Below, in pieces: positions 21,569-57,317 of a stretch of 64,000 bases of DNA (positions are counted from its first letter, which is position 1; each line of letters starts with the position of its first letter). The position numbers and the translations under genes are program-made. Origin of the DNA: Brachypterus glaber (lineage: Eukaryota > Arthropoda > Insecta > Coleoptera > Kateretidae); the NCBI GenBank assembly GCA_958510825.1, contig OY294051.1, positions 32,863,667 to 32,927,666 on the forward strand, given 5' to 3'. Below the pieces are notes generated by a model that was given only the letters and a program-made list of their open reading frames with translations, did no database searches and was not told where the DNA came from.

Positions 21569-21576
21569 GTCATGTA

Positions 21577-24300: not shown

Positions 24301-24302
24301 TA

Positions 24303-31277: not shown

Positions 31278-31280
31278 TAA

Positions 31281-32131: not shown

Positions 32132-32170
32132 TAATCATTACGTAAGCAAATCATGTTTTTTTTTAATTTT

Positions 32171-35201: not shown

Positions 35202-35404
35202 ATTAATCATTTAAGGAAAGCTGTTGTTCAATTTTCATCACTACATGTGTAATTAAATATATAAAATTGAATAAATGCCTTAAGTGAGCAGCTACGATTT
35301 TGTTGGATGCATTTCTATGATCTCCAGTACGTCTACTACAAAGTCCCCTAAACAGTTTTTGGTGACATTTTTGTCAAACCTATGCTTGCCTGAAGACACC
35401 TGTG

Positions 35405-36297
35405 TATTCTTGTGATAAAAGCTAGAAATATTTTAATCCTGAAATTTATTTTTAGAAAAATCCATACAAAAAATGCCTTTCAAGTTGAAAGGCAAGTTTT
35501 AACTTATGTTTCTATGTTTAATGCGGAATTAAAACTAGTCGACACTAGATCATTGTTCTTGGATATCTAGTTTAAAATAGGTTAAGTGGACTTTTAAATC
35601 TGCGGACATCTTTAGCTTTTGGATTAAGGTGGCCTTCAATTTAAAATAAACTGGTTACAGAAAGTACTTTCAAGGACCATATGGTAATAATTAAAAAATT
35701 TAGATAAACTTGAAGTACAACGCTGAGATGGATTTATTTCAGTTTATGTTTTCTAGATACGATGTTAAATGGTAAAAACAATGGAATAAACCCATGCCTG
35801 TGTCAGACGCAACAGATGTATGGATCCAGTGTTAAAATAAAAACCATTTTTTGTCAAAAAATGTTGTTTTATCATATTTATTTTTTTTTTTTTTTGAAAA
35901 AGAAATATTTTTAAAAACGAAAAAAATAAATAAAAAACAACATTTTAAATTAAACCTGGATACGACCAGTGATAAAAGACACAGCGACAAAAATATGAAA
36001 ACCGAGGATAAAGAGATTTAGTTAATGCGAGGGAGAAATGCTGCGTAATGTTTTTTACCCTTAAAGGGTAGGAAAAGCATTAAGGGTTTTGAATTCGTTA
36101 TGCAAAAATGTACATTGCGTGCTATTATTCAAGAATAAAAAGCCTCGTTGAAAAATTCTTTAGATTTATGGAACAGTTAAAGTATTTATGGGCAATTGTA
36201 AACTAAATAGGGTTGGTAAGACAATAGTAATATTTTTCGTTTGTAAAGCTATATAGTACCTGTAATTACAGCTACTATTTTAGCTATTAAAATTAAT
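35405..36297. other. Intron, nothing recognised
   Basis: AT-rich. The pair TTTGTCAAAAAATGTTGTTTTATC (about 35850) and AAAAACAACATTTT (about 35933) forms a weak foldback. No gene is seen. Confidence 0.4.
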
Positions 36298-36945
36298 ACA
36301 GGGGGGGGGGTGGGTGTCAGTAAAAATGTTACGTAACACTTAAAAAATTATAAACTTATAAAACATTTATTGGATCACGTTTTTAACAATGATCTATACC
36401 TAAAGAGACGAATTCCTTGCAAATTTTATTGCACACGGCGTGGTTAACAGTTTACAAAATCCTCTAAACAAAAACAAATTAGAGATGGAAAACCATCAGA
36501 CCGGTTTTCGGTTAAAACACGGAAACAATAACCGGTTAAAAACCGGATAAACCAAAAAGAACACTTTCCCTTCAATTTGTTTACTTTTTGTAAAAAAAAA
36601 TGTTACGTAACAAATGGGGGGTCTCGAGAATGTTACGCCGCGTTACAGGGGTGGGGGTGGGGGTCAAAAAAGTCCAAATTTTGAGTTAGGGAACGTTCAA
36701 GTATTACGTAACGCAAAATGTACCAAAATTAATACACTTCATACCTCGGATCTCGCGTTATTCAAGGCTGTAGAGATTTAATATTTTGGCTACCCCCCTA
36801 ACACACCCCCTATTAGGAGGGGTAGCCAAAATATGAAATCTCTATAATTTATAATAACGCAAGAATAATGAAGTGTATGAATTTTGGTACAATTTGCGTT
36901 ACGTATTACTTGAACGTTCCCTTACGTAATACTTTAACGTTCCCT
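36298..36945. mobile_element. PIF/Harbinger-like element, truncated on the left, split by a nested MITE
   Basis: The sequence from GGGGGGGGGTGGGTGTCAG (36301) onward matches 40105-40541. Its right end, ACGTTCCC followed by TAA, is at about 36945. A related MITE (36689-36921) is inserted near its right end. It contains AACCGGTT/ACCGGTTT motifs at 36510-36550. Confidence 0.65.
36689..36921. mobile_element. PIF/Harbinger-like foldback MITE, TTA duplication with empty-site proof
   Basis: The ends GGGAACGTTCAAGTATTACG and their complement give a nearly full palindrome. TTA is present at 36686-36688 and 36922-36924. The homologous position at 40513-40530 reads TTTTGCGTTACGTAATAC with a single TTA, showing the pre-insertion site. 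Confidence 0.85.
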
Positions 36946-37125
36946 AAATGGAAATGGGTAAAAAAGTGAAAAGTGGGATGTCGTTTACGGTTTTCTATGA
37001 ATATTTTTGTAAAAAAAATATATTTTTTTCATATTTGCCCCCCTTGTCGCACCCCAATATTCACCAAAAACAATCCAGAGCAATAACTTTTGGTAACATA
37101 CCTGTATGCCAAATTTAAAGTCTCT

Positions 37126-37330
37126 AGCTTAAACCGTTCTTAAGTTATCGTGCTTACAAGATATCCCGGGCAGAACGACCGACCTGGCGACAATTTTTTT
37201 TTTGCTCAAAGTTGATTTATATCGACCTGAAACGTCATAAAACGTAAAAAACGAAAAAAAAAAAGATTTTTTTTACGAATACAAGGCTTTCCCGAAATTT
37301 TGAAAAATTTTAAAATGGGAGAGCAAAATA
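37126..37330. repeat. Dispersed repeat, copy 1 (AAGGCTTTCCCGAAATTTTG)
   Basis: Shares TTAAGTTATCGTGCTTAC, CGGGCAGAACGACC, TTTTTTTTTTGCTCAAAG, GAAACGTCATAAAACG, GAATACAAGGCTTTCCCGAA and TTAAAATGGGAGAGCAA-type segments with 58287-58530. It is probably the 3' end of a non-LTR element, but this is not proven. Confidence 0.6.
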
Positions 37331-37619
37331 TGTATGTATATATTTACAAATAATATTAAAGAAGATAACTAAAACAATATTTATTTAAACTACAATAACA
37401 TTTCTGTGTGTTGTTTTAAAAACTAAACAATATTAAATAAAAATTTATACAAAGTAGAAAATTTACAAATCCAAACTTTTGATAATTTGATTACATTGCT
37501 TTGAATGCACACTTAAAACTTAATGCCCTATTCATGATAGTCTAGACTGTTTTTTCTTGTATATTTTTTACCGTTTTCAATTGTATGATTTATAAATATA
37601 TATATTTTTTATTCGATTG
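37331..37619. other. Intron, nothing recognised
   Basis: AT-rich sequence with no recognised feature. Confidence 0.4.
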
Positions 37620-37621
37620 TA

Positions 37622-38357
37622 GGGAAAAGTAGGGCAACGGTGCGCAGAGGGTAACCGTGCGCAGTGGGTAACCGTACGCACCACCGAAAATTCATATTAC
37701 GAGGTATTCTGAGAGATCTCTGGCATCCATGCTTGAGGGGCGTGTATAACAATTTGTTAGCACCAAAAACGGCGACTGACAAATAAAAGTTGTTCACAAT
37801 ATTTAAATATGTGTGAATTAATGTTTGTTGTTATTATTTTGCACGTGTGCGAAATAGGAAGGTTAGTTTATTGACCGATTGACCGATTATTTTAAAATAA
37901 ATATATTCTTGAAGAATATGATAATTTGCATTTATCCATGGAATTTTGTTAAATTTAATTAAACATTTTTTGTTATGTAAAGTGATTTATTTTATTTAAG
38001 TTAATGATGGGGTAATGTTGCGCATTTCCCTCATTCAATTAAAAAGTTTTTAAAAACCTGTATACATATCATGTGTTTAATATATATTTTTGCATTATTT
38101 TCTGTTTTTATCTTTTGTGCATAATTCCCCAACAGGTGCGCACCATTGCCCCTTGGGGTGGGGAATTGTGCGCAAATGCACTTTTGTAGTTTTTCATTTT
38201 TATTGTGATTATGGTAAAAGCTACCTAAGTTTTGGTGATACGTAATGATAGTCTAATAAGTAAGGCTTCTTTTGCCATTTATAATTTTTTTTGTAATATT
38301 CATAAGGTGTCAGTCATCAAGTTTCACCTAGGTGCGCACCGTTACCCGACTTTTCCC
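37622..38357. mobile_element. Non-autonomous element with GGGAAAAGTNGGG ends, TA flanks
   Basis: GGGAAAAGTAGGGCAACGGT continuing GCGCA at the left, and the complement of GGGAAAAGTCGGGTAACGGT at the right. TA stands outside both ends (37620-37621 and 38358-38359). The subterminal GGTAACCGTGCGCA repeats and an internal GGTGCGCACC motif (38131) echo the ends. There is no transposase frame. Confidence 0.75.
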
Positions 38358-38670
38358 TATCTAAATGCGCCACTTTTTGTAGGTACCTATAATAAATCTG
38401 TTCGAAAAGTTTGATTTTTCACACTAGTGCGAAAAGTGAAATAGTTGACGTGGATTGGTTAATTGATATTAAAACTAATGACTAACTAATTTGGCTCAAA
38501 CGTCATTTTTGTTGTAAAAATAGAAATTTATTTAAGATATTACACTGTAAAAAATATTTCCTGCAATTAAATTACCGGAATTTTAAAAGAAAATTTTAAA
38601 ATTTTGTCGAATTTCATTCCATAATTTTAAAATATGTATTGTAATTTTAAAACTTTATTTTAGAATATTA

Positions 38671-38914
38671 CACTGATAAAACACTTTATTTGTGTCAACA
38701 AAATATTTGTTTGGATATGGCCAATTGAATTATTTGGTATTGACAAATAAATTTTATTTCTGTCAAATAAACGATTTTGTTCCCATTAATAAATCATTTT
38801 GAAATTAAAATATTTGTTTACATGAACTAAATATTTATTTGACTCAAATAAAATTTATTACTCACAAACAAATAATTTAATTGGTCATATCCAAATAAAT
38901 CGTTTTTATCAGTG
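38671..38914. mobile_element. Inner MITE 1, CACTGATAAAA ends, TA flanks
   Basis: CACTGATAAAA at the left and TTTTTATCAGTG at the right with TA on both sides. The 244-bp body is palindromic overall (CAAATATTTGTTTGGATATG and CATATCCAAATAAA on opposite halves). Confidence 0.85.
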
Positions 38915-39011
38915 TACGTCGTCATCGTAAATTTGAAAGGTAAATTTTCAGATTGAGTTAAATGTCTTATAAAACAGTAAAAAACTTGGTTTGAATCATA
39001 TGAATTTTATA

Positions 39012-39253
39012 CACTGATAGAATAATAGCTTTATTAATACAACAACATAGTGTTATATATGCGCCAACCACAAATTGTACTATAGTATAGCACTAACTAT
39101 GACATAAATAACATTTGTTTTTGTATTTATTACAATATGATGTTATTTACCTCTTAATTCTACAACTGGTTGTTGTATCGTATAACATATTTAGGTTATA
39201 ACATATTACAAAATATAGTTGGCGCCTATATTACAACAACATTTCTATCAGTG
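39012..39253. mobile_element. Inner MITE 2, CACTGATAGAA ends, TA flanks
   Basis: CACTGATAGAA at the left and TTCTATCAGTG at the right, with TA on both sides. Inner inverted landmarks are AACAACATAG, GGCGCCAACTATA-type and AATACAACAAC. The length is 242 bp. Confidence 0.85.
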
Positions 39254-39324
39254 TAATTTAATCTTAATGTTACTTTTTAATTTTACCCTAACTTTTTACA
39301 GTGTACACGCAAATAAAAAACTGT

Positions 39325-39560
39325 TTTAAGGGCGACTACGGTTTCCAACTCTTAATCACTGTGGCGTTCGGAAGGCATTAGGTTCAAATCCTGGTTATGG
39401 AAGAATCTTTTTTTATTTAATACTGACTGATCGGAGAATTTATAACATGATGGCAGAATCTTGATCGAAGTGGTGCCAAAATCCCGTTTAATTAAATTTA
39501 AATAAAATAAATTAATATTAACTAAAATTTTTCTTCTTGTGTGGGATGCTTAAGAATTAA
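39325..39560 (+). repeat. Possible second tRNA-like SINE head
   Basis: GGTTCAAATCC at 39381-39391 matches a pol III B box inside a wobble-paired T-arm (TTAGG...CCTGG). The upstream A box is not convincing. The tail GGATGCTTAAGAATTAATTC vaguely resembles the SINE tails at 25815 and 56878. Low confidence. Confidence 0.35.
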
Positions 39561-39937
39561 TTCAATCTAATGCAAAGTATATAAATTCGCAACACGGAGT
39601 AAGTAAAAAGTCCCATAAAAAAGGGTTCTAAAACATTTATGTGCTAACACTAAACGTAAATATCTGAAGTAAAACATTTAGACTGCTGAGTCGAAAAACA
39701 CAGTATATGAAAAGAAATAAACGCAAACTAATTAGAAATTTAAAAACCGAAAAATTAAAAAAAAAAAATTGTATTTTAGGATTTAGAATGTCATGAAACA
39801 TTAAAAAATGTTGCAATAGTGTGCGTTAAATAAATGTTGGTTTGTTTCTCAGTCTGTTTGTCGGTCTGTCTGTTTGTAAACCCAATAACTTTTAAACGGA
39901 ATATATTCCTTTCAAAAGTTATATATATAAAGTATAC

Positions 39938-40083
39938 TTTGACGCACGGATCTGTGGCTACGGGAAAAATGTTAGAAATGTGTGTGCAAGTGAGAGGCCC
40001 GTTGTAGACACGCACGCCTTATAACGCTTTTGACGGAAAGAAGAGAGCGCGAATGAATCCTCCCCCTTTCGTCGGAGACGAAA
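39938..40083. repeat. Dispersed repeat with TTTGACGCACGGATCTGTG start, copy 2
   Basis: Same segments as 19205-19385 in the same orientation. It abuts the truncated PIF/Harbinger-like element directly at its right end. Confidence 0.7.
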
Positions 40084-40086
40084 ACG

Positions 40087-40541
40087 TTACGCCGCGTTAC
40101 AGGGGGGGTGGGTGTCAGTAAAAATGTTACGTAACACTTAAAAAATTATAAACTTTTATATAAAATGTTTATTTTATTAGATCACGTTTTTAACAATGAT
40201 CTAGGCTTAAAGAGACGGATTCCTTGCAAATTTTATTACACACGGCGTAGTTAACAGTTAACTAAATCCTCTAAACAAAAACAATTAGAGATGGAAAACC
40301 ATAGCCAATAACCGGTTTCGGAAATTACATCAGACCGGTTTTGGGTTAAAACACAGAAGCAATAACCGGTTAAAAACCGGTTTAAACCATAAAGAAAATT
40401 TTCCTTTTATTTTTTTTCTCTTTTAAAATGTTACGTAACAAATAGGGGGGGGGGTCCCGAAAATATTACGCTCGTTAAATGGGGGGTGGGGGTCAAAAAT
40501 GGCCAAATTTTGCGTTACGTAATACTTGAACGCTCCTTAAT
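40087..40541. mobile_element. PIF/Harbinger-like element, left-truncated
   Basis: Matches 36298-36945 without the nested MITE. The right end TACTTGAACGCTCC is followed by TTA. It contains four AACCGGTT/ACCGGTTT-type motifs at 40309-40388. Confidence 0.65.
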
Positions 40542-41089
40542 GTGTTAAATATACTTTATAGAAATGTAATCACTCTTAGTTTTTTTAGATTGATACAAAC
40601 AAATGAAAATCGAATTTTCTTAAAAAGCGCACTGAGGATTTCTTTGCTCCTAAAATAATCAGGGGATGTCCTCAAATCAATTTCTAAAAAAACTAGGAGT
40701 GATTACATTCCTGATTTAAAGTTAGTCCAAGCTCGCCGTGTATCTGTTTTAAAGTTAAAAGTTAAAATCATAAAAAAAAACATGCACTGGCGCCTTCGCC
40801 AAAATTTCAAATAACTCGACTTTCCAATGTTTGGATTCAGAATCTAATAAATTGCAAAAATTTTATTTTTGCCCTTAATTCCAACTTACTAGAAAATGTT
40901 TTTGCCATGTTTCTCCTTGGTAGGCGATAGGATATAAAGTAAAACATTTGGGTTAGAACCTCGATTCAAAGTAATTTGTCTAAAACCTAACGAAACATTT
41001 TTGCAAATAAATCCAACTTCTTAAATAATAAATAAACAAAAAACCCCTTAAGTGTAACATTTTCTACGAGGTAGTGCATCGTAATAGTA
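40542..41089. other. Intron, nothing coding recognised
   Basis: A loose inverted pair, GTAATCACTCTTAGTTTTTT (40567) with AAAACTAGGAGTGATTAC (about 40688-40705), suggests another foldback of about 140 bp. GGCGCCTTCGCCAAAATTTC at 40791 is the motif also found by SINEs. No gene is seen. Confidence 0.5.
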
Positions 41090-41645
41090 ATTATATACCA
41101 AAGAAGAGAATACATTTTTTATAGCCTAGCGTATTAAATCCCGAGCTGCGTAGCAGCAAGGGATTTAAGAGTGCGAGGCTATAATAGTCTTCTCTACCGT
41201 GGTTTATATATTAGTTTTTTTACTACTAGCACTATTTAACTATTTTTATTCAAATAATAAAATAAATTATTAACAGAAATTATATTTCTTGAAATTTTCA
41301 TCAAAAGTAGCCTTGATCAATCACATTTGATCAAATAAATACTTTGAAATGATTATTTTTTTTATAATATTTAGCTAATTATGGATTATATTAATTGGTA
41401 ATAATTATAAGTAATTATATTTAATAAATAAAAAGTTATTTAAAGCTATTTTCTTGGGTTTAACTATTAAAAATTGCGCAAAGAACTGAAACATCTAAAG
41501 TGACAGAAATCAATTGTTTATAAAATTTACTCCTACTAGGAGAGAAAAAATTATTATTGCTATAGTAAGTGAAGAAAATTGATTTCACGGTCTGAAAACA
41601 TGATAAATAATGGTATGTTCTAAAGCTAGTAGTAAAAAAAATTAT
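41090..41645. repeat. Dispersed repeat, copy 2 of 2
   Basis: Matches 14391-14950. The hairpin loop carries an extra AATCCCGAGCTGCGTAGCAG-type insertion. The body ends TTTTTTTACTACTAGC and GCTAGTAGTAAAAAAA correspond to the inverted ends seen in copy 1. Confidence 0.75.
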
Positions 41646-42551
41646 ATTTATGTACAAGGACTAAGCATAATTCTAGTAAGCCTTCCACCATCAATATTAA
41701 AAAAAATCAGTTGTGTGGTAGCTTATTTTCAAAAAAAATTTGTAGCGCAGTGCATTTAATTTTACTGCATATTTTTTAAGAAACTATGTTGCAAAAAGCC
41801 TCATTGATATTATTTGACACACGGATGTGTGGCTATGAAAAATATGTGCGGAATGTGTGAGTCTCTCACACGCACGCCTTATGACGCTTAACAATCAAGT
41901 CCAAACTATTTAAATTTAAATAGTTAAGAAAAACTTTGTTTTATTAACCCTACGCCCAAGAAAATTTTATACATTACTAAAGGGTAAAAATGCATTTAAA
42001 GATTAAGAATTATATTTTATCCGGGTATAGAAAACCAAAACAGTATAAAATGACTATGGTAATTTTTAAGAAATAAAGTCCATTATCTTCCGAAACCTTG
42101 CACCTCAGATTTTACTGTTTATGTTTTTATAATGTGTAGACCTCCTACCGACAGGATTAACTCTTTGCTATGGCAGGTCACTTAAACTTAATGTCTGTTC
42201 AGGATCAGTGTGCCCTAACCGTTTGCTACGTGCTTGGAATAAATCTCTTACGATGCTTTAACTTGTAGAATAGAAGACGATAACTCCGATTTGGACTTTT
42301 ATAAGGCAAACGACTGCGCTGGAATCGATCCGGACTTTCCAGTCACCCAGTTTTATGTTGAACTTGGTCCTCTTGCAAGGATAACGACTTAACTACACAG
42401 TGCAGTCTGCACTCAGTTCAGCGTTTAGAATTTACAGGGTTGAAGAATAAGGGCGGATGTGCAAAATACATTTTTGGAGAAAACCTCCACAATTTTTAAG
42501 GTATTTTTATTTCATTTATTAACTGTTTTACAGATTAGTATAAGTACTTGA
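41646..42551. other. Intron; partial dispersed repeat at 41812-41892
   Basis: 41812-41892 is a partial third copy of the CACGGATNTGTGGCTA repeat. The rest is unassigned. No coding segment is recognised. Confidence 0.4.
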
Positions 42552-42699
42552 GGAACGTTCAAGTATTACGTAACGCAAATTTTGATCATTTTGAAACCCC
42601 CCTCCCCCTGTGACGCTATTTTCCTATACCATTAACATAGGCGTAACACTCCAAAATGACCTCCCCCCTAGGACCGTTACGTAATACTTGAACGTTCCC
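42552..42699. mobile_element. Short PIF/Harbinger-like MITE
   Basis: GGAACGTTCAAGTATTACGT at the left and its complement ending at about 42698, with a GAAACCCCCCTCCCCCTGTG interior. It is a 150-bp foldback of the same family as 36689. The flanking repeat is unclear (TTGA on both sides, offset by one base). Confidence 0.7.
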
Positions 42700-45310
42700 T
42701 TGATACAAAATAGTTATTTTTGAGAGCAAAATTACTGATTTCAGCTTGAGCGTGGAGTTTGCAGCAATCACGCGAAAGCAGAAGTCACATTTTTCGCTCG
42801 TAATACAAACAACATTTTTTCTACGATCTAAAATAAATAAATAAATACATTTTAGACAGTAAGTTACCTTACAAGGTCGCAGCACTTGAGTACAATTTTC
42901 TGCAAATCTGTTGATGTAAAAGTAAAATCCTAATCACAGTAACTCTCCATAATTCCTTCGTAACAGCAAATATATAGCACACAAATATTTAGTACACGAA
43001 ATTAAAATTTGATTCAAAATAAATAATAATTTTATATTAAAAAAATGGCGTATCAACATCTCGTCGCATATAACTGACAGCTGTTTTACGATTAACATGC
43101 CGGTTGCCTATACTGTGGGAGCGAAAAAAATCACTTTTCTGTCATAGTAACGAGCAGAAAAGTAAAATACTAAGAAATAGGTTATTTTGAAGTCTGAAAC
43201 TTCATTTGTTTTTGTAGAAATGTTAACCTTTCTATTAGAAAAATATTTTTTTTTTGCATTTTTTGAAACATTGGACATGCGACTCTTGTACTCCATCCCG
43301 GAGAATTAGGCCCGTAACTTACGGGTGGCTACACGATTGAAATCTGAAAGTGTCGGTGTCTATCTTTCTGTCTGTCCGTCTCATTTTTAAACTTTTAAAG
43401 GAATATCCCATTAAAAAATTCTTTTACTAAACAATTAAGGACCTTTGTAGTTTACGTCACTTGAAATATGGCTAAAATTGCGGTAGTATAAAGGGGACAA
43501 AGGAAGAAAAAACTATGATTTTGGCGAAAACTCGTTTAATTTTTATTATAACAAACGTCCTTTTACAGTTAGAACGCATTTTAAATTTCCTACAAAAACA
43601 TTTTTAATATTTTTGTGTAGTAGAACTATTATAATAACAATGATTTTTATAGGTATAGAGATTTTAATATAACTTCAACCGTCTAGAATTATTTACATTT
43701 TTTCTTATTGTTGATTATAGAGGTTCTAAACATCGAAAAAAGTAAAAAAGTATGATGAAATTTTTTGACCCATCGAGCATAAATGCAAAATACGCAGAAG
43801 TAATGTTAAAAATCCTGTTATATCCTACTTTATACCCTACGTATCCTGCAATATTAGGATAAGGACTCCATGTCTGAGATACTTTTGTGGAGTCAGTCCA
43901 GTGATCATTTGGGATTGGGCAAAGCCAGATAGGGAGAATAAGGGGACCAGGACATCTTTCCCCAATTATTTATCATATCAGTACACAACTACTTGTACTG
44001 TAAATCAAAGGAGGTACGACAGAAAGTGGTAAATAATTCACTACTTCTCTTCAATAATAAAAAAAGTTATTGGATTTACTCCAATAACTTTACAAAAAAA
44101 TATCAAAAAATAGAATAAAAATAGAAATATTCATAATAAGTTTTAGAAAGATCCATTTAAAAACAAAAAAGTTATAGGGAGCTCCACTTATTAATATAGT
44201 ATAAAAAATGCGCAGTTGAGCTAAAATTTTGGGAAGTTTCTCGACAAAAAACGCAATATATTATCTACTTTGAAGATAATAATATGGAGTGCGTATCAAT
44301 ATTATATTTAAGTCTGGAAATAAGCTCACTGAAACCCTAAAAATAATATAAATTAGAAACAATTCAAAAACCTTATTTATTTATAGCTTTGGCTCAATAT
44401 TTATTTATTTATTTATTTATTATGTTTAAAGTCATTCTGGGACCTTATTTAAGGTATTTGGTACCATATTAGACTGTTTAACAAAACTAGTATAATTTTG
44501 AAGTGCTCCAAGTCTATAGCCATTAAGCGAGGTATGATTTTTTAGCTAACTACGTTCTGTCAACCACCAGTTAAAGTGATCTGATCGAGGGAAAGGATAA
44601 GATTAAACCGGGATTAAAACCACGATTAAATTTCGACATGCGACAGATAAAAGCATTATTTAATTAATATTTGGCAACATGTAATTCATCAAGATTACGG
44701 AATTATTATTTTGCGTTCTAAGCCACAAAAAAAGTTGATTAAAATCTACCCCCTTCTAAAACATTCCTATTTTAGTTTTCTGCGTGTTTTTAAATATTAA
44801 ATTTTTAACTGATACACATACAGGGTGTATTTGAAATAGGGTCCGAAATGTTAAGGGGTGATTCTAATAAAATAAAATAAAATATGTTTAAAAATGTTAA
44901 AAAAAATCGATTTTGTTTAATAACTCGGGAACCCTTTGAGATACAGCAAGGCGGTTTTGCACATGAACTTATTTTAGGCCCATCTTCGTATGTTGTTTTC
45001 ATGTACTTATTTTAACCAGGGGCGTGCGAAATAGGGGGCTTTGTATCAGTTTTTTGTGCTAAACTTTTTTCTGTGTATTTTTTTTGTAATTTTATTTTTG
45101 GAATATGATTCCTCAGGTCAAAATACATAAAAAAGTTACTTTTGTTGTAATACTGTAGGATTAACCATTTTCGAGAAAAATGTTTTGAAGGTAAAATTTC
45201 ACGGTTCAAGGACGAAAAATTAAATACTAAAATGTTGAATTAAACCAAAATCCAAACCAAAGATAGTATACGTAATATAAAGGTATTGCAAAATATTAAG
45301 GACTTTTTGA
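42700..45310. other. Intron, mostly unassigned
   Basis: Contains a (TTTA)n run at 44398-44421 and an AT-rich remainder. CAGGGTGTATTTGAAATAGG (44820) and GGGGCGTGCGAAATAGGG (45019) are loose direct echoes. Short open frames here do not resemble known proteins. Confidence 0.4.
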
Positions 45311-45313
45311 ATA

Positions 45314-45610
45314 AAAAGTCCACAAAAAAAGAAAAGTTATTTGTGCTGGGGTTAATACGCACCTATTTTTATGTATTTTGGGCTACTGGACACGAATCTG
45401 TCATAAAAAAGGCACTTCATGGGCTTATTTTTTTTGCTACACATTTATTATTAAAATGGTAAAAATCTCATATTATTTCAGTGTAGCAAAAAAATGACCT
45501 CATGAAGTGACTTTTCTATGACAGATTTGTATTCAGCATCCCAAAATATATAAGAATAGGTGGGTCTCAACCCCAGCACAGCCAACTTTTCTTTTTTCGT
45601 GGGCCTGTGT
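45314..45610. mobile_element. PIF/Harbinger-like MITE, ordinary two-arm form
   Basis: Relative of 31281-32131. Left arm: GTGCTGGGGTTAATACG, TGTATTTTGGGCTACTGGAC, GAATCTGTCATAAAAAAGGC. The right arm is inverted and ends GGGCCTGTG followed by TAA. The outermost left end is missing or diverged. Confidence 0.7.
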
Positions 45611-45750
45611 AATTTACACTAATAAATGGTAGTTTATATCAGCACTTAATATTTAACGATAAGTTTGTGATGGGTATAATAATCTTTTATGTTTTACTAT
45701 TCAAAACTGTAGTTAACGCATTTATCAACTAACTTCTTTACTTATAAAAT

Positions 45751-46001
45751 AAATTAAATTGTTTGATATTTACAAATTTAAAAAATCTATATAAAAACTC
45801 CATATAGAGATATATGGAAAGGATTTGATTTTCGTAGTTGTCCCTACTACCGATATGTGGCTCTGAAGAGTGCTAAAAAGCACGAAATCGATCAGTCACT
45901 TCGGAGGGACGACTGCGTTAATCAAACAAAAGTCGTTTTAAGGAATAGTAAAATGTTTTATATAGATTTTTTAAATTTGTAAATATCAAACAATTTAATT
46001 T
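45751..46001. repeat. 45-bp inverted repeats surrounding hammerhead copy A
   Basis: AAATTAAATTGTTTGATATT and onward at 45751-45795 is exactly repeated as its reverse complement at 45957-46001. The first ribozyme lies in the roughly 160-bp loop between the arms. The second ribozyme copy has the ribozyme and 37 bp of its upstream sequence but not the left arm. Confidence 0.85.
45833..45917 (+). ncRNA. Type-I hammerhead ribozyme, copy A
   Basis: A self-cleaving RNA fold read directly from the + strand. The core boxes are CTGAAGA (45863-45869) and GAAA (45884-45887). Stem II is GTGC/GCAC closed by a TAAAAA loop. Stem III is the minimal palindrome ATC/GAT with no loop. The cleavage triplet is ATC with C17 at 45893, so cleavage is expected between 45893 and 45894. 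Stem I is GTGGCT/AGTCAC, then a TAT/T internal loop, CCGA/TCGG, an ACTA bulge, and a 13-bp outer helix CGTAGTTGTCCCT/AGGGACGACTGCG with two G-U pairs. All invariant core bases of the hammerhead (C3 U4 G5 A6, G8 A9, G12 A13 A14, A15.1-U16.1, H17) are present. The near-absent stem III is typical of animal retroelement hammerheads, which cleave best as dimers. It is antisense to the CDK5 activator transcript. Confidence 0.85.
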
Positions 46002-46268
46002 AGTTTATTAATTCAGATACCACTGTAAAAGGTGCCCTCCTAGCGTTTAGGATTCAATTGGCGGCAATGTCCACCGTGGCATTGATTAATCTGCCCCCTA
46101 TCGACAGCGTGCAATAGGTTCTTGAAACCAATAAGTGCTTCCTTTTTTGGACTGTCGATAGGTTTATCCAGTCTCTGCTTTTAGCAGTAGATGTCGCTAA
46201 CTGTTTTTGCTTTTCCTTACAACGACTTTTAAACTCCATATAGAGATATATGGAAAGGATTTGATTTT

Positions 46269-46353
46269 CGTAGTTGTCCCCACTACCGATATGTGGCTCT
46301 GAAGAGTGCTAAAAAGCACGAAATCGATCAGTCACTTCGGAGGGACGACTGCG
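46269..46353 (+). ncRNA. Type-I hammerhead ribozyme, copy B
   Basis: Same fold and same core as copy A, 436 bp downstream. CTGAAGA is at 46299-46305, GAAA at 46320-46323, and the expected cleavage is between 46329 and 46330. The only difference noticed is T to C at the inner end of the outer helix (CCCC instead of CCCT), which removes one base pair. Cleavage at both sites of a dimeric transcript would release a 436-nt unit, the substrate that retrozymes circularise. The BEL/Pao LTR begins three bases after this copy. Confidence 0.85.
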
Positions 46354-46356
46354 TTT

Positions 46357-46996
46357 GTTGTGTGACGTCGAAAGGTCCCATTCGGTGATATGGGATTGCC
46401 TCCGTAACATCGCCTTTATGATATTAATTAAGTGGACTGCGAATAGGTATTAATGATTGAAAAGAATATTAAAGACAAAACGACAGTTCCAATAGTATAT
46501 ATGGTAATCCTACCTTAGTTACAGCATTCAGCACGACAGGTCATGACCGCCATTTCTTCACAGGAGACACCACATAATTGGAAACTGATGTACGCGAATT
46601 AAAGTTTGTTTTTGACCAGTGTAGGTATACACTACTAATTATTTAAATACATATGTGTATATGGAACTTATTTCTATAGTTTGCAGCCGTAAAATATGGT
46701 AAATTCTAACGAATGCCCGCGCTTGGTATATTCGTCAGCTGATTTGAGTATATTTTTATTGACACGCATCTATCGTTCTAGAGCGTCAAATTGATACTAC
46801 TGTTCGGAAGGCTGGTCCCGAACGAACTCATGCGCAGAAAAGCTAGGATGTTTTCAGCGCGTTACTTACAAAAATACAATTAATTTAAAATAAAATATTA
46901 TTTTTGAATTATAACTAAGTAAAGAAATTAAATGAAATTATGTATAATAAAACCCAAATTAAAAATAAATACAAACACCGAAATGTGGTTGTAACA
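46357..46996 (-). mobile_element. BEL/Pao element, 3' LTR (640 bp)
   Basis: On the - strand the LTR begins TGTTACAACC at 46996 and ends CACACAACA at 46357, giving matched TGTT...AACA termini. It is repeated at 52505-53131 with only one difference noticed (G/A at 46362 versus 52510). Near-identity of the LTRs means a recent insertion. The upstream purine-rich GGTGGGCGG (minus, about 47000-47008) is a weak polypurine-tract candidate. Confidence 0.9.
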
Positions 46997-47031
46997 TTAC
47001 CGCCCACCAAAACACACAAAATTAGAGTGTT

Positions 47032-48230
47032 TTAACAACACATAGGTAATATACATAATTTTACTAAGGGCCTCTTTAGGACACCTTGAGCTGTACGGAC
47101 ATTTACTACTCGGATCACACCATCAGCACCTGGAAATAACTCTATTACACGACCTATCGACCAACGAAGAGGGGGCTGTAAATCGTTCTTTATCAGCACC
47201 ATAGAACCAAGTTCTATCGGTTTAGAGGGTTCATTCCATTTAACTCTTTGCTGTAAAGTACATAAATATTCGGAATGATACCTGGCCCAGTAGTCCTGAT
47301 GCATACGTTGAATGAGCTGCCACCTATTTAGACGATTAAGAGGCAAGTCTTGTAGATCAGGCTCTGGCGGGGCAGAGAGTGAGTTCAGGGTAAGAAAATG
47401 TCCGGGAGTTAAGACCGATAAATCATTTGGGTCAGAGCTAACTGGACAAAGAGGTCTCGAGTTCAATAAGGCTTCTATTTGAACTAAGAAGGTTGAGAAT
47501 TCCTCATATGTCAGTCGTTGTAAACCAACTACTCTATATAAATGAGTTTTTACCGACTTAACACCAGATTCAAACAGACCACCAAAATGTGGGTCTATGA
47601 AAGGATTTAATTTACGTAAAGTTTTATTAACCGGCTTTTGTTGCTCGATACGTACAATATCTTCCTTAAAATATTGGTGTTGAACAATTTTAACCAAAGT
47701 CATTAAGGACACTTGTAAATCATTTGCAACTAAAGCAGTAGTAACCTTTTGATTAGGATTACGTAAATTGAAACCAAAACGAAAAATATATGAGACAACA
47801 CGTATTAGACGTGATAATCTAGAATATTTGTTTAATAGGGTATCAATAAATTGATCAGTCTCTATTAAAACTAGGGATATAATCTTGGCCTCATCTGGAG
47901 ACGTAACGGGTGTAAAACTATCCGTATCAAGATCCAGGGAGGTAGACAAGAATTCTGGTCCCGCCCACCATTGGGTACACTGCATAAGCTCGCTGGGAAA
48001 AAGCCCACGTGAACCATGGTCAGCCACGTTGTCCGCAGACTTAACATGATACCAACAATCTGGTGGTACCAAATCTTGGATGTGGCTAACGCGATTTGCG
48101 ACGAATGTTTTCCAACGATGGGGCGGAGCCTTAATCCATGATAAGGCTACCATGGAATCTGACCAAGCATATGTTTTTCTGAAAAGTAATGCTGTTTTTA
48201 TAAGTGTTGCGAACAAACTTTATTAAATTA
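47032..48230 (-). pseudogene. BEL/Pao pol remnant: RNase H end, integrase flanks, DUF5641
   Basis: The frame starts in the RNase H region (TYAWSDSMVALSWI and HVKSADNVADHGSRG are typical BEL motifs). It passes the region before the integrase zinc finger (LRKLNPFID) and then jumps straight to PHFGGLFESGVKSVKTHLYR, which carries the third catalytic Glu of the integrase. The H2C2 zinc-binding motif and the first two catalytic Asp residues are missing, so the integrase core is deleted in frame. The C-terminus (LTPGHFLTLNSL, LNRWQLIQRMHQDYWARYH, WSIGRVIELFPGADG, RPLVKLCILP) is the conserved DUF5641 tail of BEL polyproteins. It is out of frame with the upstream segment by a frameshift near 48225. 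Not functional as an integrase. Confidence 0.85.
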
Positions 48231-49368
48231 CTTAATAAAACAGCAGCGCACAATTCCAAGCGGGGTATTGATAATTTTTTTAAAGTAGCAACTTTTGACT
48301 TTGCACAGATTAAGGAAACTTCAAACTTTCCATCTGGCAGAGGTTTTCGAAAGAAAATTATAGCACAATAGCCCTTCTCAGAACTGTCACAAAGCCATGC
48401 AATTCTAAACCACTGGCGTTTTTTATATCAAGAAAACGGGAAATTTTTAAATCTGCTAACATGTGCAATTCAGATTTAAATTGTAACCACTTTGTTACCA
48501 CTTCATTGGGAAGTGGCTGGTCCCAATCACAACCTAGTGACCATAAATGCTGTATTAAATGCTTGGCTACAAAGGTTATTGGACTGAGATATCCAAGTGG
48601 ATCCCAAATACGCGCAATATCCGATAGGATAGAACGCTTAATTTTTACGGATTCATCTTGCAAGCATCGTTTTTCTAAAGAGAAAAAACGCTTAAGTGCG
48701 TTTGTGCGAGAATCACCCATAAACGTAGGTTCCATTTTTTTGAATGGTAGGGCAACCATGTAACGTCCATCGTTTGTTCGTGTACATGATTCAGTATATT
48801 GTTGTTCACACCATTTTTCCTCAGGAGTTAATTTTTCCTGTTGAGGTACCTGCTCTAATTCCCAAAAGGACTTTAGATCAAAGGTTTCCATGGATGTGAC
48901 AAGTGCAAAATTTGTCGGGGAGGGATAGGATATTTTCCCCATTAGTATATATCCGAAAACTGTCTCAATGGCTACCGGTTGACTCAGATCCCCTGCTACT
49001 TTATTGCTGAGCAAAATCTGAGCAAACACCTCCGCCCCCAGTAAAAGCTCCACGGCTTTTACTTTATTAAATTCGGGATCTGCTAAATTTAGCTGGCGTA
49101 TGTGATGCCATTGGGTAGTATCGAGTGCGCATGCCGGCAACCGTTCAGGAAGATTCGGCAGCACAACTGCATCAATATTAAGAATAGGATTCTTAGCTTG
49201 AGTGGGCTTTATTACGCATTGAGTAATGCCCTTGGATGTTACCGGAGAATTAGGATTAATGCCCGTTATGGTCTTATGAAAAGACGAACGGTGTAATCCT
49301 AGCCGATTCAAACATCTTTCTGTTATAAATGAACAAGTAGAGCCATTATCAATTAAAGCACGTATTAA
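48231..49368 (-). pseudogene. BEL/Pao protease and pol remnant without reverse transcriptase core
   Basis: Continues in the gag frame after one in-frame TAA (49371-49369). It begins with the aspartic protease (ALIDNGSTCSFITE, where family members normally have D-S-G; here the middle residue is Asn). It passes through VVLPNLPERLPACAL and VAIETVFGYILMGK to the segment just before the reverse transcriptase (GRYMVALPFKK, ALKRFFSLEKRC), and then continues with IKRSILSDIARIWDPLGYLS, which normally follows it. The reverse transcriptase palm and YxDD-type region are absent, an in-frame deletion. A one-base frameshift near 48400 (after LELHGF) shifts the RNase H part into another frame until about 48231. 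Confidence 0.85.
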
Positions 49369-50796
49369 TTAATAGTGCCCACGACCATCCTTTACGTGTA
49401 CCATAGCAGTAGCCAATAAAATTGGCGCTGGTACTGTCGTTATGGATGTAAAAACGTTAGGATCATTAGACTCGACGCTAGAGTCATTATTTCCTACGTA
49501 GTTTTGTCCCGATGTACCGGCCATTTGGACCGATAAGGGAGGGGTTACGTTATTTTCACCAGAATGTGATAAATTTACTTTAACTGCCTTGTTATTTGGT
49601 TTGTCAAAATGTAAAGTGGAATGATGTCGCTTTTTACATATTTTGCATAAATGAGTAGAATTGCAAAACTTAAAGTTGTGTGAATGGCTAAGACAATTGA
49701 CACATAACCTATGCTGTTTAGCAATTTCATATCTCTTTTTTGGAGCTTCTGATAAAAACGACCTACACTGAGAAACATGATGATTTGACTTGCAAACAGG
49801 GCAAGATAAAATATCAGTATTTGTCACAAAAGAAGAATTATTATATGAATCTAACTTAACATGTTTTGATACTGGCTTTTGAACATTGTTGATTGGTGCT
49901 TTTTTAGAAGATAAAGCCTCAACAGTTTCTAAAGCCTTAGCATGTGCTGTCAAAAACAGTTTTAATTCGTCAAATGTGGGAAAACCATTTTTTTTATTTT
50001 GTTCCTCAAACTTAGCACAAAGATTTTTTGGAATACGTTTGTACACCATATCTACAAGAATAAAGCTCCACTCGTTTGTTGGAAGACCCAAGGCCCCGAG
50101 TGCCGCTAAATTTTCGACAAGAGTATTCAGGAAAATAATCAAGGCTGATGATGTGTCAGAGATGTTTGGCAGTTGACATATTGCCTGCCAGTGCGTATTA
50201 GCCAATAATCGTTTATTGTCATACCTCTGACGCAGCTGATTATAAGCTACAGAGTAGTTACTTCCCGATAATTGAACACACTTAATGATGCTAAGTGGTT
50301 CCGGAGTTAATAATAAATGTAAATGAGAAAATTTTTCAATGTCTGAGAGTTGGGGATTTGTATGTATAGCAGAATCATACAAATCTATAAAAGTTTGCCA
50401 GTCTGGAAATTTTCCGCTAAAAGGTTTTAAATTCAACTTTTGAAGCTTGACATTTGAAGTCGTAGCATTTGAAGAACTTCCAAATAATTGTACATAAATA
50501 CCTTGGATCTGCCAAAACATTTCATCAATCACCGTAGCAGCTTCCTTTTCTTTAGCTATATCCGTTTTTCGGATAGCATCCGTACGTCCAGGATCTGATA
50601 TGACGAAAGCGAGTATGTCATCAGCCAGCTTATGCCATTGCTTATAAGTCACATCCAGCTGTTGATAACAAATTTTAAAATGTTGCTGTTTTGTGATATC
50701 TTTTTGAGCGGCCACTGCTGCCTTTTGAACTCGCTTTAGCCTATCATATTGCAACTGCCTACGGTTGTCCATAATACAATATTCGTTTAGATCCAT
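49369..50796 (-). CDS. gag: BEL/Pao Gag polyprotein (DUF1759, zinc knuckles)
   Basis: An open frame of 475 codons from ATG at 50796. Residues about 115-270 (KLNLKPFSGKFPDWQTFIDL, FSHLHLLLTPEPLSIIKC, AYNQLRQRYDNKRLL) are the DUF1759 capsid-like domain of BEL/Pao elements. Residues about 335-405 hold cysteine/histidine clusters (CPVCKSNHHVSQC, CVNCLSHSHNFKFC, CKICKKRHHSTLH) that are the zinc knuckles and nucleic-acid-binding part. The frame ends at the start of the protease (VHVKDGRGHY, then TAA). The next codons continue the protease in the same frame, so the stop is a break in a normally single gag-pol frame. Gag itself looks intact and could in principle still package RNA. Confidence 0.88.
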   Translation of the reverse strand: MDLNEYCIMDNRRQLQYDRLKRVQKAAVAAQKDITKQQHFKICYQQLDVTYKQWHKLADDILAFVISDPGRTDAIRKTDIAKEKEAATVIDEMFWQIQGIYVQLFGSSSNATTSNVKLQKLNLKPFSGKFPDWQTFIDLYDSAIHTNPQLSDIEKFSHLHLLLTPEPLSIIKCVQLSGSNYSVAYNQLRQRYDNKRLLANTHWQAICQLPNISDTSSALIIFLNTLVENLAALGALGLPTNEWSFILVDMVYKRIPKNLCAKFEEQNKKNGFPTFDELKLFLTAHAKALETVEALSSKKAPINNVQKPVSKHVKLDSYNNSSFVTNTDILSCPVCKSNHHVSQCRSFLSEAPKKRYEIAKQHRLCVNCLSHSHNFKFCNSTHLCKICKKRHHSTLHFDKPNNKAVKVNLSHSGENNVTPPLSVQMAGTSGQNYVGNNDSSVESNDPNVFTSITTVPAPILLATAMVHVKDGRGHY

Positions 50797-52504
50797 GGCT
50801 TATAAAATTTATTTATTGAAAGGTAAAAGAAAAAAAAATAAAAATTATAAAAAAAAAATATAAACTGAATAATTTTAGGAAAATTACACAATTTTTTCTC
50901 AAATTTTATTTCTTAAATTGAATTTATTGTAGAAGAAAACCTCCAGATATAATGGCTAAAATATAACTTATACCTCAGTAATGAATCACCCTGTAAATAT
51001 TTTCAACAAAATTCAAAATTCCAAATTATAATCCAAACTATGAGTTACCCTGTATATTTGCACAGAGTTTTCCAAAAAACCAAATTCAAAAAATTACAAT
51101 TTAATTTTTAAGTCACCCTGTATATATTCTGACAGAATATAAAAAAAACAAAAACAAAAACTCAAAAGTACAATTTAAGACCCTGTATATATGGACTGGA
51201 TACTCAAAAAGGCAAAATTCAAAATTACAATTAAGCTTTAGGTTACCCTGTATGCATATATTTGACAGAATATTAAAAAAATTCAGATTATAATCTAAGT
51301 TCAATTCTCCTGTATGAAAATATTTTGAAATGGGCTAAATTTATTTTTAACCTATTCTTTGAAAATTACAATTTTTTTTTATGTACCGATAGTATTTCCA
51401 AAAAATAAAAAAGAAAATAAAATAAAAATTAAAATTATATTTTTAAGTGTTTTCTACTATTTTTCAACCTGGTATACACTAAAGATACAGCTCAAGATTT
51501 CCCACTTGCATAACCCTGTATACATTCGAAAAGTACAAGAAAAAATACCTAGATATCCAATATAAAAAAATAAGTTTTACAAAAGTTCCTAATTATAAGA
51601 ACTCCCTGTATAATAGTAAAACTAGAATTTGGACAAGGTATCTTATTTTTGCGCGCAAAAAATATATCAAATTAGAAGGAAAAAAATCAAAATATAAAAG
51701 TAATTTTGTTTCCACCCTATATGTAACTTTACTAGCAATAGGTAAATTTTTAAATCTATTACTACTAGATAGGTATTTTAATAATAATATCTTGCTCGCA
51801 AATAAGTTCTATCGAATGTAATTAATTATATGGATAAATTTTAATTTATTTTTTTCAAAGCACAGAAATATTTTTAAGAATCTTTCTACGCCCAAATAAA
51901 TCACCAGTTTTAAAATAATAATTTTCAAAAGGCAAAGTTAAATAATATTTTTATTTTAACAATAAACTGTATTTTTTGCAAAATAAAATAATAATTGCGG
52001 TTTTGATTGTGTCCAAAGAAAAAGGAAAAAAACGCTTGGATACAGCTGATAATTTTTTGCCTTTTTTATACAGCACAAAGTTTACGATTTTATCGGTTTT
52101 TAATTTTTCAACCGAAAAATCCAAAATATATTTTTAAAGCGAATTACCCTATTTGAAAATAATTTTTATTCAAAATAAGATTTTACGCGAGATTTTTTTG
52201 TTAATAAATAATGCAACACTCAAATATGATATATTTATTTATAACGAATAATTTTAATGTTAATAAATAAGCTATCTTCGAATGCTAAATCCAAATATGA
52301 TATTGTTATTTATAACAAATATGTAATTTTACAACTTGCAAAAGAAAGTTACCACACACACACTGTAAAATTAGCAAAATCTAGTTAAATGAATTTAAAA
52401 GCTATGAAGCTATGTTAAATAGTTATACTAGTGCCAAAATTCCGGTTCAAAACGGACCATGTTATAATGGTTCTGCTAGCTTAGATCCGGTTCGAAAGGG
52501 CCAT
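50797..52504 (-). other. BEL/Pao leader with ~65-bp tandem repeats
   Basis: Between the 5' LTR and gag. A CCCTGTATA motif recurs near 50988, 51047, 51115, 51180, 51245 and 51308, spaced about 59-68 bp. Weaker copies lie near 51513, 51604 and 51713. The shared unit is roughly ACCCTGTATATATTTGACAG, then AATAT, A-rich sequence and AAAATTACAATTTAA. The rest of the leader is AT-rich and non-coding. Confidence 0.75.
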
Positions 52505-53331
52505 GTTGTATGACGTCGAAAGGTCCCATTCGGTGATATGGGATTGCCTCCGTAACATCGCCTTTATGATATTAATTAAGTGGACTGCGAATAGGTATTA
52601 ATGATTGAAAAGAATATTAAAGACAAAACGACAGTTCCAATAGTATATATGGTAATCCTACCTTAGTTACAGCATTCAGCACGACAGGTCATGACCGCCA
52701 TTTCTTCACAGGAGACACCACATAATTGGAAACTGATGTACGCGAATTAAAGTTTGTTTTTGACCAGTGTAGGTATACACTACTAATTATTTAAATACAT
52801 ATGTGTATATGGAACTTATTTCTATAGTTTGCAGCCGTAAAATATGGTAAATTCTAACGAATGCCCGCGCTTGGTATATTCGTCAGCTGATTTGAGTATA
52901 TTTTTATTGACACGCATCTATCGTTCTAGAGCGTCAAATTGATACTACTGTTCGGAAGGCTGGTCCCGAACGAACTCATGCGCAGAAAAGCTAGGATGTT
53001 TTCAGCGCGTTACTTACAAAAATACAATTAATTTAAAATAAAATATTATTTTTGAATTATAACTAAGTAAAGAAATTAAATGAAATTATGTATAATAAAA
53101 CCCAAATTAAAAATAAATACAAACACCGAAANNNNNNNNNNNNNNNNNNNNNNNNNNNNNNNNNNNNNNNNNNNNNNNNNNNNNNNNNNNNNNNNNNNNN
53201 NNNNNNNNNNNNNNNNNNNNNNNNNNNNNNNNNNNNNNNNNNNNNNNNNNNNNNNNNNNNNNNNNNNNNNNNNNNNNNNNNNNNNNNNNNNNNNNNNNNN
53301 NNNNNNNNNNNNNNNNNNNNNNNNNNNNNNN
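52505..53331 (-). mobile_element. BEL/Pao 5' LTR running into an assembly gap
   Basis: 52505-53131 matches the 3' LTR. The last 13 or so bases and the flank fall into 200 N at 53132-53331. Open frames reported across the N block are artefacts. Confidence 0.9.
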
Positions 53332-56300
53332 TGCTAGGGGGTGCTCAGCGCCCCTTGGCATGATTTTGAGCACCCCCTGGCGAAATAAGCTCTAAGCACC
53401 CCCACAGGGTATATGGTATTTACCTATATAATAATAATAATTATAATTATTTAAAATTCTCACAAAACAGAAAATTAATTAATATTATTTTTAGTTTAAT
53501 TTTTCAGATGTGAGGACCTTTTTCTTTGTCATTAAAATTTTCCGTCCGGTGGTAGTAAAGCTTTTTTTGAGTTGGGAATTTTTTAGAGGTGAGGACTTTT
53601 TTAGGCTGCAAAATTTCACGGTCAGGGGTAAAGCTGTTTTTTTTTATTTAGGAAATTTTTCTGTTTTTAAATTTTTTGTTGGGAAATATTTGCTCTGTCC
53701 CCCCCCCCCACACACAAGAAAATGCTTTGGAGCACCAATGAAAATATTATAAAAAAAAATTGTCAGGTGGTGCCCAGCACCCTCTGGATTGTTTTCCAGT
53801 TACGGGCCTGAAAGTACTTAAAATTACTTAAATCAAATGTTTTGCTTGATTAAAGTTGAATAATATCTTACTTAGACAAAGCGGTTAAAACTTGAATTAA
53901 ATAAAAGTGTTTGATTTGAATGATAACATTTCTTGTATTTGGACAATGAAAAAAAAAATTGTGCCTGTCATAACGCCTAAAACGAAGCAATGTAGTGCAT
54001 TTTCGAACTTAAAACGTCCCGGCTCGCCATTTTGAAATAAAACATTCTGATTTTTTTTTGAGGTTATCCACTTACTATCCCTTTATACCGTGCCGTATTA
54101 AAAAGATTTAAATAAAAAATCCTTCGGCCTTAAAAATAATAAAAAAGAAAAAGAAACATGTCTTTTTAAAAAATAGCTGTGAGCGACCTTTAGATTTTTT
54201 TAAAAATTCTGAAAAAATTCTAACCCTAATGAAAAAAGACCTCCAAATTTTTCAATTGAAATTTTGGTGGGAAAAAACTTGGGGTTTCAGAATTTTTGAT
54301 CAGCAGCCTAATTTCCTACATGCCAAGTTTTTGATTTGTTTTAAAAGTATGCATATATGAATAAAACTTCTGGAAGAATAGACAGAGAGACACCTTATTG
54401 ATTTTAATATACAGATATTTTTTTCTTAAAAATCAAGAAACTTATTATAACTTATAAGTTTTAGGATTGAAAACCTATAAACATGTAATAGGCGACATAA
54501 TAGGCAATTTCTTTTTATGTTATACGACGATATAAATTTAGAGTAACTAGCCCTTAGTCTGGTTAAAGAACGCAACAGAAAACAAAGACCTAATAATGTA
54601 ATAAAATTTTCTTGAACCTCAAATAAATTAACAGACGTCTGGAAAACATCTAGATGCTGATAATTTGTGGAAAAACAAATCAAATTACCAATGTTTTTAG
54701 GTTAATAAGACAAAATCACAAAAAACGTTGTCGCCAAATAAATATAGAGCAAACACAAATAGAATAAACTCAAAATTGTATGGTTCCACCACACGTACTT
54801 TCTCGCAAAAAAGTGCCTATATTTTGGGTTTTTTAAATTTAATTTATTGTTATTATACTGTTCACAGCGCCTGCGCTAGAATAGTATAATAAGGTGGTTT
54901 CAAATTTCCGAAAATCGCCAAAAAATGTCCCAGACAAAAAATTCTTGGATACAACTGAAAAAATAAGAACCTGAAAATGTCCGTCCTTCTGATGTCACGT
55001 TTATGTGTACACGATAACTCAAGAACGACTTATCCGATCGACTCGAAATTTTTAGAAAAAATCAAGTTCTATGAGGGGAACACCCCTATTGTTTTTAATA
55101 GTAATCCCCCTAAAAACATAAAAAAAATTATGGGGGGTTAAACTTTAAAAAAAATCGAAAAAAGCTGAAAGAAAATTTCGATTTAACCCCCTATAACTTT
55201 TTCAGAAAAAAATACTTTTATTATTAAGTTAAATTCTTTCTTTTGAAAGTAATCCCCCAAATAAGAAATAACACAAAAGTCTTATTTTTTGATTTTTTAA
55301 ATTAAAAGTACACATAATTATTAATTGATCCTGAAATAAAAAAAAAATAAAAAATGGAGTTTTTGAGAAAAATGGCCTTAAAATTTTTCGCCGCCATCTT
55401 GAAGTAATAAACACTGCAGGCATTTTTAAATAAATTGGCTCAAAATAACAATATTTATCCATACGATACTAAATATTATTCTAAATGTTACTGTACTAAT
55501 TTTATTTTTTGCAATGTCACTTTTCGACTGTCTAATTGGGCTTAATCCTATCCGTATGTTAATGGGGACACGACTAGTAATATAATTTCGCTTTTCGCTC
55601 GAGTTATTTTAATTTTAATTCAAACTATTTCTCGTAAGTTATAAATTTGACAGTGCAAACTTTTAAAGTTGTTGTTAAGTTTGGTGTACCAGTTGTGGAA
55701 TTCTTATTGTAATTTTTATCGATTTTACTAGAAGTGGAAAGTGGCACAATAAAATTCAAATTATAATTTCGTGAATTAGAACAGTTTTCCTGTATGCCTG
55801 ATAAACTAACTCTTATTTATATTTAGAAAGAAACGAAAATTGATTAAAAAACATAAAAACCCTCCGTTTGGCACGATTTTATATTAATATATGCGTAGGT
55901 AAAGATGTCAAATGTTCTCTCTCTCTCTCTTTATTTTTGACCTTTGCCTTTGTCAATTGGCCAGCTCGCTGCTCTCTTGTTAGTTGTTTCCAGTGCTCAA
56001 GTACTAATCGGATATGTATCCTGACTTGCGCACTATCACTGACAAATTACTGTTGTAGTAACTTCCACGCTAGTATAAAAAACTTCATTAAAAACACACA
56101 AAAAAATTATCTTCAAACGACCATTAATATCAGCTTAATACTCAACAGTTCACACGATTAATAACCGTATGGTTTAACTTGTACATAAAACATTAATATA
56201 AAAATACTCTAGGCACATCATAAAAGATGGCAAAACAAAAATGCACAAGGCACATCATAAAAGATGGCGAATTCGATGCACTGAATTTAGGTGCCAAGAA

Positions 56301-57140: not shown

Positions 57141-57317
57141 TTTTTACTGTGATTTTTTGTCATTTGACAGGATATTCGTCATACTTGGTGATTGGTGTGG
57201 AATCCGCTTTAGATACCTATTGCATAATATCTTATAAATACTTGTTATAAAAATATTTAACTGATTTTATTTAATAATTTGTTTTAATTTCAATTAGTAT
57301 TTATTTTTAAGCAATAA

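Follow-up and report, generated by a model that had tools for sequence, protein, structure and literature searches.

The window, as we call the whole 64-kb stretch of DNA that was analysed, holds two hammerhead ribozyme motifs within one insertion of a mobile element, which lies in antisense in a long intron of the gene for a CDK5 activator (p35) and is itself interrupted by an LTR element. The features are given below by their position in the window; unit positions refer to the 436-nt unit between the two predicted cleavage sites, and A and B are two putative start sites of reverse transcription within it.

10716..62436, minus strand: CDK5 activator (p35) intron that holds the element in antisense, splice sites CAG/GTATGC and CCAG/GATGTA
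45744..46355: surviving retrozyme insertion, from the unit mapping of the window's own locus (L036) and from repeats
45744..45796, minus strand: inverted left arm, unit 63-115, with its outer end at start site B (98.1% identity over 53 nt)
45795..46355, plus strand: forward arm, made of unit 338-436, one full unit and then unit 1-26, cut at 46355
45833..45917, plus strand: hammerhead copy 1, core 45863-45893, predicted cleavage after 45893
45833-45845/45905-45917, 45850-45853/45901-45904 and 45857-45862/45894-45899, plus strand: stem I of hammerhead copy 1
45894..46329, plus strand: 436-nt unit between the two predicted cleavage sites
45955..45964, plus strand: start site A; A ends most often stop at unit 71 (45964)
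45965..46008, plus strand: tail between A and B, 44 nt, unit 72-115, a predicted hairpin
46269..46353, plus strand: hammerhead copy 2, with one base different (46281 C), predicted cleavage after 46329
46356..53131, minus strand: Bel-Pao LTR element interrupting copy 2 (Pfam DUF1759, Peptidase_A17 and DUF5641)

The CDK5 activator gene was recognised by a Pfam match in exon 1 and a PDB match in exon 2, and the best named relatives of exon 1 come from beetles (Anoplophora, 85%; Aethina, 87%; Tenebrio, 86%). The first-pass annotation, made from the sequence alone, had placed the ribozymes inside an insect intron. A beetle intron was confirmed, but the ribozymes lie in antisense to the gene that hosts them; none would therefore be formed in its pre-mRNA, and they are part of a mobile element. 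The tandem is the 436-nt unit of this element, which has many near-identical copies in the genome. The span first marked, 45833-46353, fits both ribozymes but leaves out the inverted left arm (45744-45796), whose exact letter match ends at unit 109 and which forms part of an inverted repeat. The Bel-Pao element, likewise overlooked in the first-pass annotation, is a young insertion into the retrozyme: its LTRs (46356-46983 and 52504-53131) are 99.84% identical over 628 bp, the far one running into a 200-N gap (53132-53331). Because it inserted at 46356, copy 2 ends at 46355 and the right end of the retrozyme is invisible. Other repeats in the window include a direct 1576-bp duplication (27082-28657 and 28662-30237, 100% identity, 4-bp spacer), which would be either very recent or an assembly artefact, a palindromic MITE-like element (45320-45602) that adjoins the retrozyme, and a tandem array of a relative of the latter (31448-32112, period of about 138 bp).

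The sequence of the two type-I hammerhead motifs is as originally described, with the core, stem II, A15.1-U16.1 and C17 in both copies. CTGAAGA is found at 45863-45869 and 46299-46305 and C17 at 45893 and 46329, both copies have the GTGC-TAAAAA-GCAC hairpin, GAAA and the ATCGAT palindrome, and the motifs are spaced by exactly 436 nt. They lie in 125-nt direct repeats (45795-45919 and 46231-46355, starts 436 nt apart) with a single mismatch, 45845 T versus 46281 C; because of this C the outer helix of copy 2 is one pair short. At the same unit position 42 of 42 elements compared have T, and the C may be private to the window's element. The description of stem I in three parts of 6, 4 and 12-13 bp also held, as all of them were recovered in unconstrained folds (z of -8.0 for copy 1 and -4.4 for copy 2). 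Stem III had been described as a palindrome only (AUCGAU), which is indeed present in both copies, and it would therefore be little more than one pair and a tetraloop when alone. A type-I descriptor (core, stem II, A15.1-U16.1, C17 and a stem I of at least 5 bp), composed once the motif was known, matched only the two hammerhead sites on both strands of the window and had 0 matches in 300 dinucleotide shuffles; the loose core pattern alone is weak, with at least two matches in 4 of 100 shuffles. At gathering thresholds Rfam gave no match in the window. Below threshold the two sites matched Hammerhead_HH9 (28.4 and 27.6 bits, E of 4e-4 and 8e-4 in 4.5 kb), both well short of the gathering score of 52. 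A search of viral_contigs with the 31-base core pattern gave 0 matches.

Further copies occur in the genome to which the window belongs (648 Mb, 842 contigs). The ribozyme part gave at least 42 genomic matches from 721 candidates (40 scored), of which 41 show 100% identity over 131 nt, and the inner part of the unit gave at least 43 from 1179 candidates (40 scored). A genome search with RF00163 listed one other place (L082) and none of the family's copies among the 73 scored of 69482 candidates. Our sample comprised 80 loci; with 23 overlapping ones and the duplicates L020 and L077 left out, 55 loci remained, with 61 clusters in which unit pieces within 60 bp were joined. The sample covers only part of the family and favours intact copies, most of which are about 95-100% identical to the unit. 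The unit is non-coding, as the longest frame in the doubled unit has 84 codons, and its GC content is 37%; a frame with RT and GIY-YIG is absent from it. Mutated cells had a similar frequency in the ribozyme core (6 of 1418) and in the remainder of the ribozyme region (50 of 10586), and numbered 177 of 24985 elsewhere; since loci were selected in part for perfect matches to the ribozyme, we claim no selection on it. The element is retrozyme-like, young and non-coding, and the beetle genome contains many copies of it. A long satellite array was rejected as an alternative, the longest arm among 41 classified copies being 1635 nt.

The unit, its arms, their two ends, the target duplications, an ATT bias and the sharing of alleles are all apparent in the aligned copies. 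Forty-seven of the 61 clusters are two-armed and 14 are one-strand pieces, and in 47/47 two-armed clusters the arms stand head-to-head, with the 5′ ends inside and the 3′ ends outside. The outer ends were classified as A (unit 66-92) or B (unit 105-124), intervals that were set after the ends were inspected. A ends fall exactly at 71 in 21/50 (range 61-83), and B ends at 114-115 in 27/50 (range 103-122). Where both ends could be classified, 41/42 clusters have one A and one B end; with a random choice of A or B at each end, 41 or more such pairs would have a chance of about 1e-11 (simple arithmetic, independence assumed). In the remaining five two-armed clusters one end falls elsewhere; the window's own element, with its left end at B and its right end lost, is among these. 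L076 (G000:C674), on a small scaffold, stands alone among the classified two-ended copies in having B at both ends; it has no clear target-site duplication (TSD) and is possibly a composite. A and B are on opposite sides of the base of a single predicted hairpin, where the pairs 71-113, 70-114 and 69-115 have a probability of about 0.6.

Target duplications of 8-15 bp, lengths that are upper values with slack allowed at the element edges, were found at 29/42 clusters, while 2.8% of mismatched flank pairs reach 8 bp or more. All of the clusters with a duplication of at least 8 bp are A+B (29/29). At ends exactly at 71 the flank starts with AAT in 11/21, compared with a background of 3.4% in the same flanks, and the priming strand would therefore end in ATT. 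The 5′ junctions are scattered along the unit, with overlaps or gaps of -15 to +7 nt and two further overlaps of 21 and 29; none of the 42 classified clusters has a junction gap above 15 nt, pieces more than 60 bp apart having been split. Elements with a longer inner sequence are therefore divided by the joining rule: L045 resembles a further A+B pair whose arms are some 200 bp apart, and split elements may likewise be present at L066 and L071. Arm lengths range from 71 to 1635 nt, up to 3.75 units.

Alleles were compared at eight recurrent variant sites. Within one element, the A arm and the B arm carry the same allele in 163/173 cells, as against 5641/7449 between elements (0/2000 permutations reach the observed value), and successive units within one arm agree in 143/145. 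One RNA variant thus seems to have served both arms. The ribozyme cleavage site was passed by 41/41 A arms and 37/41 B arms, and 15 A and 22 B arms (of 41 each) are longer than one turn; a hammerhead-cut linear monomer cannot yield such arms, whereas a circle or an uncut multimer can. Folded as a circle, the 436-nt unit has a predicted minimum free energy of -132.4 kcal/mol (z of -7.4 in 60 dinucleotide shuffles) with 67% of its bases paired; 2/42 other pieces of the window have folds as good or better, both of them in inverted-repeat regions. Circular retrozyme RNAs elsewhere have been reported to be more than 70% paired. That junction gaps are short in the 42 classified clusters favours a circle without proving it, and an uncut linear multimer could likewise be the template.

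These observations suggest that the ribozymes are probably processing signals of a non-autonomous, non-coding 436-nt retrozyme, whose RNA, a circle or a multimer, would serve as template for Penelope-type machinery primed from both strands of the target. We infer cleavage, circularity, priming of both strands and the use of a Penelope enzyme from the marks left in the copies. A read-through transcript would be cut at the hammerheads, probably pairwise via the AUCGAU palindrome, and the unit would be ligated into a circle. A Penelope-type RT/GIY-YIG machinery would then cut both strands of an AT-rich target, and each target 3′ end would prime reverse transcription on the same RNA, one strand at A (unit 71) and the other at B (unit 114-115). 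Each cDNA may travel around the RNA more than once. The two cDNAs would finally join head-to-head at varying positions of the unit, and fill-in would yield the target duplication of 8-15 bp.

The insertion marks tested (head-to-head arms, a tail at one end, a short TSD and the ATT cut) match the Penelope type. Penelope insertions contain direct pLTRs next to which an inverted pLTR lies, in most cases head-to-head; one of the pLTRs may bear a 31-bp tail, and the TSDs are of 8-10 bp (PMC3846280). A purified Penelope protein, PAc, cuts and extends both strands and prefers ATT, and its reverse transcription starts at two adjacent internal RNA sites, the interval between which equals the genomic tail of 30-40 bp; the start site was the same for both strands in vitro, and the tail is called optional (PMC11167929). 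The beetle retrozyme resembles Penelope in the head-to-head orientation of its arms, the tail at one end, a short TSD, a pair of adjacent putative start sites and ATT cuts (PMC3846280, PMC11167929), and, as in PAc, its predicted hammerhead cleavage site lies upstream of where reverse transcription would start (PMC11167929). It differs from Penelope in lacking an RT/EN frame, in the long stem I of its hammerhead and in a tail of 44 nt rather than 30-40. Moreover, one tailed and one tailless end are nearly the rule in the beetle family, whereas the Penelope tail is optional (PMC11167929, PMC3846280).

Potential sources of such machinery reside in the same genome, where at least 31 GIY-YIG matches exceeded the cut-off (150 of 419 candidates scored). 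One Penelope-like element (L083/L081, G000:C556:5900-9100) has an open frame of 716 aa with RVT_1 and GIY-YIG. The spacer before this frame (L081), the one spacer examined, contains neither CTGANGA nor an Rfam hammerhead, and includes a 25-nt inverted pair between the end of the upstream frame and the start of the downstream one. Compared with the retrozyme unit, this one spacer gave weak AT-rich matches only (E of 0.005 or worse), and no sequence link between the retrozyme and the Penelope element was found by this comparison. Elsewhere in the genome, locus L082 (G000:C10:30937700-30939100) carries at 641-687 a canonical type-I hammerhead that scores above gathering with Rfam Hammerhead_1 (45.8 bits). 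Its sequence is unlike that of the first, it lies within inverted repeats (250-298 versus 754-804), and it may represent another retrozyme family that inserts in the same manner.

Among retrozymes, the closest likeness is to the metazoan non-LTR type, with which the beetle family shares the type-I hammerhead, short tandem non-coding units, a GC content below 50% and a predicted self-paired circle (PMC7229834). The palindromic, single-pair stem III is like that of axolotl Amex1; axolotl dimers cleave better, and in mussel retrozymes most of the conserved contact bases between loop I and loop II are missing (PMC7229834). Unlike the metazoan retrozymes, the beetle unit of 436 nt lies at the upper edge of their 150-450-bp repeats and above their 170-400-nt RNAs, and its copies have arms in head-to-head orientation with 3′ ends at two fixed sites, whereas metazoan retrozymes are described as tandem repeats (PMC7229834). 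Plant LTR retrozymes are likewise non-coding, with direct repeats that carry hammerheads and with circular RNA, which in the beetle is a prediction, but they differ in their type-III hammerheads, LTRs of 300-400 bp, PBS/PPT and 4-bp TSDs (PMC4918200). A plant-type LTR retrozyme was rejected, since the ribozyme is of type I and not III and the TSDs are of 8-15 bp (29/42) and not 4 bp.

Several other explanations were weighed. A non-autonomous Penelope derivative with the hammerhead in its pseudo-LTR, copied from linear multimers without a circle, would have the insertion anatomy of Penelope (PMC3846280), and PAc insertion in vitro did not need hammerhead cleavage (PMC11167929). We consider it improbable, as the unit has no coding remnant (longest frame 84 codons) and, split clusters aside, none of the 42 classified clusters has a junction gap beyond 15 nt. 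Uniform alleles along arms as long as 3.75 units also speak against it, although they fit transcripts of uniform arrays as well.

Mobilisation by a LINE, with the inverted arm arising from L1-style twin priming, is an unlikely explanation. Twin priming likewise yields inversions, but its second end is variably placed. In the beetle family, both outer ends are fixed internal sites, A+B in 41/42 clusters, and they fall at the unit's own AT-rich sites; the ATT preference and the one-sided tail are Penelope-like. On the other hand, LINEs and PLEs have both been suggested for animal retrozymes (PMC7229834), and TSDs of 15 bp have been reported for Nematostella repeats.

The second arm could instead have been made from the first by fold-back, self-primed copying, with no further priming on the opposite strand of the target. 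For the inverted pLTR and head-to-head palindromes of Penelope, the authors of PMC3846280 prefer self-priming on an antisense template, and this likewise predicts the sharing of alleles between arms. However, each arm of L001, L029 and L067 has stretches of the unit that are missing from the other, as read from the alignment rows, and therefore neither arm was copied from the other; in many other elements, where the shorter arm lies within the longer, this comparison is silent. The fixed A and B ends on both sides would also be left unexplained, and we regard a fold-back origin as very unlikely.

A MITE-like foldback DNA transposon that happens to carry a hammerhead is suggested by the window copy, an inverted repeat around the hammerhead with a strong fold, and by the presence of TSDs, but it is barely credible given the unequal ends, arms of 71-1635 nt, junctions spread over the unit, tandem units and lack of fixed symmetric TIRs. 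A role in the host pre-mRNA as a conserved hammerhead of the intron, like amniote HH9/HH10, in favour of which are only the intronic site and HH9 as the best Rfam match, has next to no chance of being correct, as the motifs are antisense to the gene and below gathering and have many near-identical dispersed copies.

Copying of the retrozyme RNA from both target strands by Penelope-type machinery is our preferred reading. Counting against it are the Rfam scores below gathering, the absence of the family's copies among the 73 scored RF00163 candidates, the B+B copy L076, the five two-armed clusters with one unclassified end and, in vitro, the use of the same start site on both strands together with the optional tail (PMC11167929). 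Mobilisation of retrozymes by Penelope was proposed in 2020 on the basis of shared ribozymes, tandem copies and co-occurrence, with LINEs or PLEs as the candidates (PMC7229834). In our literature search, which did not reach the main Penelope-hammerhead papers, no retrozyme report with such an insertion structure was recognised. The insertion scars provide positional evidence for Penelope machinery as the route by which animal retrozymes enter genomes. They agree with the published in-vitro Penelope reaction on several independent points and predict two starts on the 436-nt RNA. The scars also suggest that both target strands were primed on one RNA, a point not settled in the excerpted Penelope work (PMC3846280, PMC11167929). 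We lean slightly towards the more general view that animal retrozymes may stand to Penelope elements as SINEs do to LINEs: an RNA circle made by the ribozymes, with two fixed start sites across one hairpin, would be copied by a Penelope RT/EN from both cut strands, one per site, for several turns, and the cDNAs would be sealed head-to-head.
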